A stretch of 31,962 nt of DNA, taken from the IMG/VR virus record IMGVR_UViG_3300045933_000063, positions 1 through 31,962 of that record; one strand, written 5' to 3'. The translations under genes were made by a program, and so were the position numbers. This DNA is from a virus. Positions 1,843 to 6,245 of the stretch are shown piece after piece. Position 1 is the first letter of the stretch, and each line of letters starts with the position of its first letter. The notes beneath the pieces were generated by a model that worked only from the letters and a program-made list of their open reading frames with translations, did not search any database and was not told the DNA's origin.

Positions 1843-1961
1843 TCCCGAAACAGATTTCGGGATCAACGGCTAAAAAAATTTGCCTCGCCACGGACCTAGG
1901 GGAGTGCCGAGTTGACAACGAGAATAGGGCCTTCTTCCGGATTTTCGGAAAATGGACGTAA
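1839..1961 (+). CDS. possible 40-residue microgene
   Basis: ATG 1839 overlaps the previous stop (ATGA) and opens a 40-codon frame ending TAA at 1959-1961. It begins MIPKQISGSTAKKICLATDL. The first codons include a perfect 10-bp inverted repeat (1841-1850 with 1855-1864) that would hide its own initiation region. A GAGG lies 5-8 bp upstream. The -35 part of the promoter called here overlaps its 3' end. Coupling argues for translation; small size and lack of recognised homology argue for caution. Confidence 0.3.
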   Translation: MIPKQISGSTAKKICLATDLGECRVDNENRAFFRIFGKWT

Positions 1962-1970
1962 TGGTAGAAT
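1942..1970 (+). promoter_or_regulatory. extended -10 promoter for leader RNA
   Basis: TGGTAGAAT at 1962-1970 is a TGn extended -10 element with a 5-of-6 match to TATAAT. A poor -35 (TTTTCG, 1942-1947) sits 17 bp upstream, as is usual when the extended element compensates. The predicted start, about 1977, lies just before the hairpin set that ends in the terminator at 2042-2086. A TTGACA at 1912-1917 has no matching -10 at the right spacing and was not used. Confidence 0.5.
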
Positions 1971-1983
1971 CGAAAAAATGTGG

Positions 1984-2084
1984 TGCCGTGAGATGAGCGC
2001 GGCAAGGTGTTCCGACCTGGGTGATTCCAGGTCGCAACGTGAAGACCCTCGGCTTGGTGCTCATCTCACCAGGTCGAGGGTTTT
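1984..2084 (+). ncRNA. three-hairpin structured leader or sRNA with kissing loops
   Basis: Hairpin 1 pairs 1984-1989 with 1999-2004 and exposes loop GAGATGAGC (1990-1998). Hairpin 2 pairs 2009-2020 with 2027-2038, 11 of 12 positions, loop GTGATT. Hairpin 3 pairs 2042-2059 with 2067-2084, a continuous 18-bp stem with three G-T wobbles, loop CTCATCT (2060-2066). The whole 7-nt loop 3 is exactly complementary to AGATGAG (1991-1997) in loop 1. The complementarity extends to 11 nt (1988-1998 with 2059-2069) if stems rearrange. Promoter and terminator bracket it, giving an RNA of about 110 nt. I match it to no known riboswitch class. Confidence 0.6.
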
Positions 2085-2086
2085 CT
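2042..2086 (+). terminator. intrinsic terminator / attenuator before replication gene
   Basis: 18-bp hairpin (2042-2059 with 2067-2084) followed by a short T-rich run TTTTCT. It ends only 11-14 bp before the ATG at 2098, so transcripts that stop here never include the replication gene. Read-through would be needed to express it from the promoter at 1942-1970. Stem formation may compete with the alternative pairing 1988-1998/2059-2069. Confidence 0.65.
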
Positions 2087-2097
2087 ATTAGGGTAAC

Positions 2098-2934
2098 ATG
2101 CCAAACCGTATCATCCATGAGAAGGCACTCTATAGCGCAACACTTTCTAATCTTTCCGCTGAGGCTGAGCGGTTGTTCTGGCGGCTGACCGTAGTTGCTG
2201 ACGACAAAGGCCGATTTGATGCGTTCCCAGCAACGGTTAAGTCCGATTGCTTCCCTCGGCTTGTCGACCACATCCCTACCAAGAAAATTATTACCTGGCT
2301 GCTTGAATTATCCACAGAGTGTTGCAGATTTTACACAGTTGACGGGCGAGAATATGGGTATTTCGTGAAGTGGGCGGAATATCAGAGGGTTTATGGGAAC
2401 AAACCGAAGTTCCCGCAACCCCCCGCAGATTGCGGCAGTTCCCCGCAGAATCCCGCTCTTATTCTTATTCCTACTCCTACTTCTATTCCTACTACTACTA
2501 CTACTACTACTTGTCCATCGGTGATGGACGATGAGTTTGAAAAAGTTTGGAAAGCCTACCCTCGGAAGATCGGAAAACAAGCCGCGATGCAAGCATGGAA
2601 GAAAGCGAAAGACAAGCCTCCGTTGGTCGACATACTGCAAGCCATTGAAAAAGCAAAACAATCAGAGCAATGGACGAAGGAAAATGGGCAATTTATACCT
2701 CATCCGTCGACGTGGCTGAATCAGGGACGGTGGGCGGATGAGGTGCAACCGAAGCGCAAGAGCTTGATGGAAGAATTCATTGAGAGGGGCACGCATGGCC
2801 ATGGATCGAGAACAGTTTTACAGAGGGTGGCTGCTACTCATTACGCAACCGTGGGGGCGGCTGTATCTGGACCGGACGCAAGCGACGGAGGAGCAGCGAG
2901 CGACAGCGCAGATCCAGCAAGAACTGTACTATAA
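2098..2934 (+). CDS. phage replication initiator-like protein
   Basis: 278 residues. The N-terminal region (about 1-105) looks like the winged-helix DNA-binding domain of phage replication/replisome-organiser proteins: LSAEAERLFWRLTVVADDKG, then EYGYFVKWAEYQRVYG. A low-complexity Pro/Thr linker follows at about residues 115-140, with seven consecutive Thr from (ACT)7. The C-terminal module (142-225) holds FEKVWKAYPRKIGKQAAMQA and PHPSTWLNQGRW, typical of phage O-like replication proteins. The last 46 or so residues overlap the next gene in another frame and look Ala/Gly/Ser-rich, so the native end is uncertain. The Shine-Dalgarno is weak (AGGG) and sits beside the terminator T-run. Confidence 0.75.
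   Translation: MPNRIIHEKALYSATLSNLSAEAERLFWRLTVVADDKGRFDAFPATVKSDCFPRLVDHIPTKKIITWLLELSTECCRFYTVDGREYGYFVKWAEYQRVYGNKPKFPQPPADCGSSPQNPALILIPTPTSIPTTTTTTTCPSVMDDEFEKVWKAYPRKIGKQAAMQAWKKAKDKPPLVDILQAIEKAKQSEQWTKENGQFIPHPSTWLNQGRWADEVQPKRKSLMEEFIERGTHGHGSRTVLQRVAATHYATVGAAVSGPDASDGGAASDSADPARTVL
2458..2511 (+). repeat. pyrimidine-rich trinucleotide microsatellite
   Basis: Degenerate CTT/CTA-type triplets run into seven perfect ACT copies (2491-2511). The tract is in frame within the replication gene and encodes its Ile/Pro/Thr linker, ending in seven Thr. Length changes in steps of 3 bp would alter linker length without frameshift. Confidence 0.9.
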
Positions 2935-4586: not shown

Positions 4587-4796
4587 ATGGCGATTACGGC
4601 GGCGAGTTTACAATCGGCGTTAGGGACGAATGCGACGGTGCTGCGGCACTCTGATGTCGCGGTCGGGGCGTTGCAGGAGCAGTATGTCATGGGGGCGTCA
4701 GGGACGACCTATGGTGGGCGGGCGCGGTGGGTGCAGACGACGGCGAGTGACAATGCGGCCACACAGGCAGCGGCGTGTTTAGCGGCGTTACTGTAG
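4587..4796 (+). CDS. 69-residue hypothetical protein before terL
   Basis: ATG 4587 is favoured over GTG 4581 because AGGAGG (4573-4578) is 8 bp upstream of it. The protein is Ala/Thr-rich (MAITAASLQSALGTNATVL, then TTASDNAATQAAACLAALL). The stop is 21 bp before the terL ATG, in the same frame. No function recognised. Confidence 0.55.
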   Translation: MAITAASLQSALGTNATVLRHSDVAVGALQEQYVMGASGTTYGGRARWVQTTASDNAATQAAACLAALL

Positions 4797-4817
4797 GTCT
4801 TCACGCCTGAGCTGATC

Positions 4818-6245
4818 ATGCAGCAGATTACCCTCCCATATCAGTGGCAGCCGCGTCCGTATCAGCTGCGGGTATGGAGTTACTTGCGGAACCGGGGCAA
4901 GCGGGCGGTGGTGTGTTGGCCCCGGCGGCATGGCAAGGATGATGTGGGCATGCAGCAGATGGCCTGTGCGATGGGGGAGCGCAAGGGGGTGTACTGGTAT
5001 TTGTTGCCGGAGTATGCGCAAGCGCGGAAGGCCGTGTGGGACGCCATTGATGAAGAGAAGGGCGTCCGGCGGATTGATCTGGTCTTTCCCCCGGCGATTC
5101 GCGACATGTACAGTGAGCAGGAAATGAAGGTGGGCTATGGCGGCAGCTATCTCCAGGTGGTGGGCGCGGATAACTATAACTCGCTCGTCGGCTCTCCCCC
5201 GGTGGGGGTGGTCTTTAGCGAATTTGCGCGGACGAATCCGAGCGCGTGGCCCTACATTATGCCGATAGTCGAGAAGAACGGGGGGTGGGCGTATTTCAAT
5301 TCGACGCCGTATGGGGACAATCATTTCAAACGCTTTTGTGAGTTTGCCGACAAGCAGATGGGGGCGGGCAAGGCCTGGTTCTACCAGCGGCTCACGGCAG
5401 ACGAGTGCGGCGTCTACACGCCAGAACAGCTCGCCGCGATCAAGGAGGAGCTCTGTACCATCCATGGGGACGACTATGGGATGGCCTTGTTTCTCCAAGA
5501 GTATTACACGAGTTTTGATGCGGCGGTCCCCGGATCCTACTTTGCGGAATTCCTGGACAAGGCCAAGGCGGAAGGCCGGATTCATCCGTTTGCGGTGGAT
5601 GGGACCCTGCCGGTCTTCACGGCGTGGGACTTGGGCCGGACGGATGATACGGCCATTTGGTGGTACCAACTCCTCGGCTCCGAACTCCTGATCTTCGACT
5701 TTCACAGCTCCTCACTCAAAGATATTGATTTTTATGTGGAGCTCCTCGAACAGAAGCGCGACGAGCACCAGATTCGCTATGGGCGGCATTGGTTGCCGCA
5801 TGATGCGCGGCCCCGGACCCAGGCGGCGGGGGCGGGCTCGACCCTGCATCAGTTCGCGGAGCACGCCCGACGCAATCCGAAGCTCGGCTCGTTTGCCATT
5901 GCGAAACGCCTGGATAAGCAGGAGCAGATTCAAGCCGTCAGGACGACGCTGCCGCGCTGCCGGTTTCATGACACCCGCACCGCCGACGGCATCAAGGCGC
6001 TGCGGCACTATCATCGGGAATGGGACGAGGAGTTGCGAAAGTTCAACGATACGCCCGTGCATGATTGGGCCTCGCATCCCGCCGATGCGTTTATGGTGCT
6101 CGCCCTCACGTGGAACATGCCGACGGTGAAGCCGGACGCGCCCGCGATCTGGCCGTTGAAGCCGCAAGGCTTTCGCTGGGGCGATCTGCTGAAGCAGCAC
6201 TTCGACCGGAGGCGGGCCCTGCGCGAGGAACAAGGCGTGAGCTGA
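4818..6245 (+). CDS. terL: terminase large subunit (ATPase-nuclease)
   Basis: 475 residues, a normal length. Walker A is WPRRHGKD (34-41). The Walker B-like strand with catalytic Glu is GVVFSEF (about 130-136). The RNase H-fold nuclease carries acidic residues in FTAWDLGR (D271), LPHDA (D329) and SHPADAF (D423). The protein pumps DNA into the procapsid and cuts concatemers. ATG 4818 is the first start after the previous stop; the upstream ribosome site is poor, so expression may depend on coupling. The stop overlaps the portal start by one base (TGATG). Confidence 0.93.
   Translation: MQQITLPYQWQPRPYQLRVWSYLRNRGKRAVVCWPRRHGKDDVGMQQMACAMGERKGVYWYLLPEYAQARKAVWDAIDEEKGVRRIDLVFPPAIRDMYSEQEMKVGYGGSYLQVVGADNYNSLVGSPPVGVVFSEFARTNPSAWPYIMPIVEKNGGWAYFNSTPYGDNHFKRFCEFADKQMGAGKAWFYQRLTADECGVYTPEQLAAIKEELCTIHGDDYGMALFLQEYYTSFDAAVPGSYFAEFLDKAKAEGRIHPFAVDGTLPVFTAWDLGRTDDTAIWWYQLLGSELLIFDFHSSSLKDIDFYVELLEQKRDEHQIRYGRHWLPHDARPRTQAAGAGSTLHQFAEHARRNPKLGSFAIAKRLDKQEQIQAVRTTLPRCRFHDTRTADGIKALRHYHREWDEELRKFNDTPVHDWASHPADAFMVLALTWNMPTVKPDAPAIWPLKPQGFRWGDLLKQHFDRRRALREEQGVS

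Follow-up and report, generated by a model that had tools for sequence, protein, structure and literature searches.

A leader RNA with mutually complementary hairpin loops upstream of a phage replication gene recurs in a second phage

Upstream of the replication initiation gene of a tailed phage we find a leader RNA that folds into three hairpins, and the loops of the first and the third hairpin are exactly complementary to each other. Sequence comparison suggests that this leader with putative kissing loops is conserved in a second, distantly related phage, where the letters of the loops have changed and their complementarity has been kept. The three-hairpin leader is probably a real RNA switch and not a product of chance. 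We give about an even chance to the proposal that this conserved RNA controls the read-through into the replication operon in the manner of an attenuator.

The DNA analyzed, here called the window, is a stretch of 31,962 nucleotides of tailed-phage DNA from an IMG/VR virus record, and its recognised genes are all located on the plus strand. A gap of 255 nt separates a small gene ending at position 1842 from the gene starting at 2098. The features of this region are the following.

1935..1950, no strand: inverted repeat TTCCG-N6-CGGAA over the -35 region, a possible operator (short arms, chance possible)
1962..1970, plus strand: extended -10 box TGGTAGAAT with a predicted RNA start near 1977 (consensus match only, weak -35)
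1984..2004, plus strand: hairpin 1, 7 bp, with the 7-nt loop AGATGAG at 1991-1997 (from the fold; the stem covaries in the second phage)
1988..1998, plus strand: candidate kissing or antiterminator segment GTGAGATGAGC (11/11 complementary to 2059-2069)
2009..2038, plus strand: hairpin 2, 3+9 bp around a 1x1 mismatch (from the fold; the middle hairpin of the second phage differs in sequence)
2041..2085, plus strand: hairpin 3, 19 bp, with the 7-nt loop CTCATCT at 2060-2066 (TTTTCTATT follows the GC stem, as in an intrinsic terminator)
2059..2069, plus strand: partner segment GCTCATCTCAC at the tip of the terminator-like hairpin (11/11 complementary to 1988-1998)
2098..2934, plus strand: gene of the replication initiation protein, rep (PHROG 270 family, E = 1.6e-29)

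The match to the PHROG 270 initiators bears out the first-pass annotation, which had called the downstream gene a replication gene. Within the gap we considered an open reading frame of 59 codons (1912-2091) as a small coding gene and rejected it. Its codon score of -0.45, as compared with a genic median of +0.33, is like that of out-of-frame sequence, and no relatives of it were found in phages. Because of this score the gap holds no hidden gene, and a translated leader ORF as used by leader-peptide attenuators is not found here. Several repeats lie nearby. A perfect hairpin (TGATCCCGAAA/TTTCGGGATCA, 1840-1865) lies at the stop codon with which the small gene ends at 1842, and a 9-bp outer repeat (GCGAGGCAA/TTGCCTCGC, 1828-1888) encloses it. 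In the interior of rep, pyrimidine-rich TATTCC/TACTAC repeats at 2461-2520 separate the conserved N-terminal and C-terminal parts and are a candidate origin. Further upstream, tandem repeats at 100-280, where ORF 136-702 starts, encode a QLVHLGxxGxGVNR-like motif.

The minimum-energy fold of the RNA from 1984 to 2085 consists of the three hairpins (-65.3 kcal/mol, z = -4.67), and none of 200 shuffled sequences equalled it. Hairpins 1984-2004 and 2009-2038 are recovered as they had been proposed. The terminator hairpin is also present, but it was computed as 19 bp at 2041-2085 and not, as described before, as 18 bp at 2042-2084. Its lower stem (GAAGA-CCCTC/GRGGGTTT) resembles that of the second phage and those of many ordinary phage terminators. 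The loop-loop complementarity seen at first reading is exact: the loops match in 7/7 positions and with their flanks in 11/11, and no third exact copy of the two 11-mers is present within the window. A strong hairpin pair with complementary loops, defined by stems of at least 6 and at least 10 bp and a loop complementarity of at least 7 nt, arose in only one of 600 shuffles of the whole window (both strands). When stems of at least 5 bp were allowed, 17 of 20,000 shuffled versions of the 255-nt gap gave such a pair. The complementarity of the loops is thus beyond chance.

Using an alignment of the N-terminal domain of the rep protein we retrieved 80 viral and 80 genomic relatives. By far the nearest among them is the rep protein of a 42-kb IMG/VR contig (3300021440_000054, termed L229), which is 76% identical over 121 aa and which searches with the window protein alone had missed. 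The two phages have a similar initiator gene and the leader in common, and the terminase of the window has no detectable relative on the L229 contig. At the DNA level the similarity of the two loci starts at the start codon of rep and excludes the leader. Upstream of its rep gene L229 has a hairpin 1 with the loop GGGAAAG, a middle hairpin with the loop GTAA and a terminator-like hairpin with the loop CTTTCCC. The loop match again reaches 11 nt (AGGGGAAAGCT/AGCTTTCCCCT), and a complementary loop pair was obtained in 8 of 20,000 shuffles of this region. In a gap-free alignment of the two cores, which were picked by hand from the folds and which as two sequences allow limited covariation, 18 of the 18 compared pairs form in both RNAs. 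Nine of these differ on both sides, and 4 of the 7 loop-loop pairs are among the compensated ones. When the partners are slid by one to three columns, pairing falls to 44-53%. The compensatory changes that the first-pass annotation had looked to as a check are present in stem pairs as well as in loop-loop pairs, in a family of only two members.

Rfam 15, which includes the cobalamin riboswitch, gave no match at the gathering score for the whole window and none up to E = 5 for positions 1820-2120, in agreement with the earlier remark that no known RNA class could be recognised. Among 5 Mb of scanned sequence, counting both strands, only the elements of the window and of L229 showed loops complementary over 7 nt together with a strong hairpin resembling a terminator. 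We searched IMG/VR for homologues with the same loops (GAGATGAG-N45..75-CTCATCTC) and obtained 113 stretches, of which only the window's own locus had both loops in hairpins. The exact hairpin-2 pattern retrieved nothing. The terminator-stem pattern gave 39 matches, mostly ordinary terminators or other sequence, and kissing loops were kept only in the L229 contig. A covariance model built from the single sequence did not reach L229, probably because the helix lengths differ, and its 0 matches in 270 genomes show little. Loop pairs in L136/L162 were discarded as they are located in a coding ORF, and a blastn match to the terminator arm (L054) looks like a chance match.

Other rep relatives have different upstream regions. 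No such leader is found directly upstream of rep in L432-L434 and in L309, a Nitrospira MAG which is the best match to the rep N-terminus in the genome collection. After L229 the next closest viral rep genes are those of L230 and L231. In L230 a hairpin upstream of rep carries a 7-nt loop, CCCCTAA, which is exactly complementary to TTAGGGG in the ribosome-binding region of rep (1454-1460/1487-1493). In L231 the hairpin loop CCTATCC is exactly complementary to GGATAGG overlapping the ribosome-binding site of rep (1456-1462/1485-1491), a possible translational switch. These two leaders, each occurring once, hint that RNA control in this rep family takes several forms. In L236 a hairpin CTCCTT-loop-AAGGAG at about 1474-1495 masks the likely ribosome-binding site of rep. 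An intergenic region of L122, a genome related to the window by terminase and portal, has many TGTAAC/GTTACA repeats in inverted order (minus strand, near 4590-4820 in plus-strand coordinates), possibly an origin or operator cluster.

How could such a leader be transcribed and terminated? Of the extended -10 promoter proposed earlier the box at 1962-1970 is present, but the -35 region is poor and such boxes are not rare (three in the window as compared with about two expected). The promoter predicted ahead of the three-hairpin RNA is for these reasons only plausible. The terminator-like hairpin lies 12 nt before the rep ATG in the window, with the Shine-Dalgarno sequence of rep outside the hairpin, and about 13 nt before the first ATG of the operon in L229, where a 51-aa ORF sits between the leader RNA and rep. 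No promoter fits into this short spacing, and transcripts of the operon therefore probably need to read through the hairpin. The U-tracts (TTTTCTATT in the window, TTTCTTCATT in L229) are mediocre and stand beside a strong stem, which makes the strength of the terminator uncertain. A simple terminator scan did not report hairpin 3; the likely reason is that bases of the U-tract are paired as part of the stem.

The 11-nt pairing spans the terminator loop, one base of the 5′ arm and three bases of the 3′ arm. It had been suggested that this pairing would open the terminator stem. It does exclude the top 3 of the 19 pairs (-33.0 to -25.6 kcal/mol, a cost of about 7), but since it is compatible with the other 16 it need not prevent termination and does not alone exclude a finished terminator. 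In folds of the nascent chain the long-range duplex is the minimum-energy structure when the RNA ends at 2066-2075 in the window and at 1294-1300 in L229; with later ends the terminator hairpin wins. In these energy calculations the order of folding is as expected for a kinetic attenuator. Judged roughly by the helix lengths, a stacked kiss inside a single molecule would be strained in the window, whose linkers are short, if hairpin 2 does not open in its lower part; in L229 it would form more easily. Pairing between two molecules may therefore also occur.

The structure of the leader RNA is well supported, and from it we infer a mechanism with the following steps. RNA polymerase would start near 1977 and synthesize hairpins 1 and 2. 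Then the emerging 5′ arm and tip of hairpin 3 would pair with hairpin 1 (11-13 bp), and the terminator would close later than it otherwise would. Once the 3′ arm follows, this pairing would give way to the terminator-like hairpin of 19 bp, and most transcripts would presumably end immediately upstream of rep. In its finished form the RNA, about 110 nt long, would retain its complementary loops and could for this reason kiss itself or a nascent copy. Such contacts, whether in cis or in trans, might tune the number of transcripts that reach rep.

We favour this attenuation in cis over two other readings of the RNA. The leader could be a free small RNA of about 110 nt with hairpin 3 as its terminator, loops that stabilise or dimerise it and a target elsewhere in phage or host, while rep would be transcribed by general phage antitermination. 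The RNA does have its own promoter-like box and terminator-like end, the loop complementarity is conserved in L229 and the next gene there is the small ORF and not rep. Neither the window nor the examined 40 kb of L229 has, however, a third exact copy of the 11-mers, and the spacing of 12-14 nt to the first ATG of the operon, seen in the two phages alike, speaks for control in cis; we regard a free small RNA as possible at about half the weight of the attenuator. Slightly less probable again is that the terminated leader pairs with nascent leaders and forces their termination, and thus serves in immunity or copy-number control. This architecture parallels the CI RNA and leader sites of satellite phage P4 (PMC4825925), and in both phages the two loops are mutually complementary within one transcript. 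On the other side, there is one pair of sites here and P4 has two targets, pairing in cis would compete with pairing in trans, and we see no evidence for lysogeny and no integrase among the proteins searched. Control in trans can coexist with the attenuator in cis.

The repeats might also act as DNA, either as two inverted 11-bp protein-binding sites or as an origin ahead of rep whose repeats form cruciforms. The inverted copies adjoin the gene of the replication initiator, with about 70-78 bp between their starts in the window and in L229. Yet in both phages they are placed exactly in 7-nt hairpin loops and have different sequences, and the stems hold G-U pairs, including U-G pairs opposite A-U in L229, which fit RNA rather than DNA. 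We therefore regard an element acting as DNA as very improbable.

Taken further, the leader might belong to a new class of RNAs for the control of phage replication, where one transcript combines a terminator-like hairpin with a loop that recognizes the tip of this very terminator. Terminated leaders would then act in trans and regulate the leaders that the same phage makes later, and the loop letters would be free to change and would set the specificity between phages. We put this forward as a speculative idea and think it rather unlikely.

Among known systems a close parallel is phage P4, where the leader-derived CI RNA base-pairs to complementary sites in the leader and halts transcription ahead of the replication genes (PMC4825925). 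As in the P4 immunity leader (CI RNA, seqA/seqC), an untranslated leader with internal complementary segments precedes a replication operon, and premature termination before the replication genes, proposed here, is the common outcome. In P4, however, the CI RNA is processed and one segment is complementary to two flanking targets, whereas here each 11-mer has one exact copy and the two loops are complementary to one another, the second of them forming part of the terminator-like hairpin itself. In the env8 cobalamin riboswitch a loop of the aptamer domain likewise kisses the loop of the downstream expression-platform hairpin (L5-L13; PMC10907184). That riboswitch controls translation by hiding the ribosome-binding site; in contrast, the leader described here has no cobalamin aptamer. 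It resembles neither P4 nor env8 in sequence and shares the full set of defining features with neither. Antisense-RNA attenuators and ColE1 RNA I/RNA II are about 110 nt long, with three hairpins and 7-nt kissing loops, and control replication. Our leader is similar in size, hairpin number, loops and replication-gene setting, but its complementarity resides within one strand, it has no Rfam match and we saw neither a good antisense promoter nor a good antisense terminator. In the IncI/IncB repZ leader the loop of hairpin I pairs with a downstream hairpin in a pseudoknot and controls the rep gene, with translation depending on a leader peptide and on exposure of the Shine-Dalgarno sequence; in the window the leader ORF is non-coding and this sequence lies outside hairpin 3. 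Plasmids and satellite phage P4 are the classic cases of replication controlled by RNA, which is, to our knowledge, little described in ordinary tailed phages. With loop letters that differ between two phages and a complementarity that has been kept, the leader would offer a compact and testable design for a self-addressed terminator, in which seven letters would determine the specificity.
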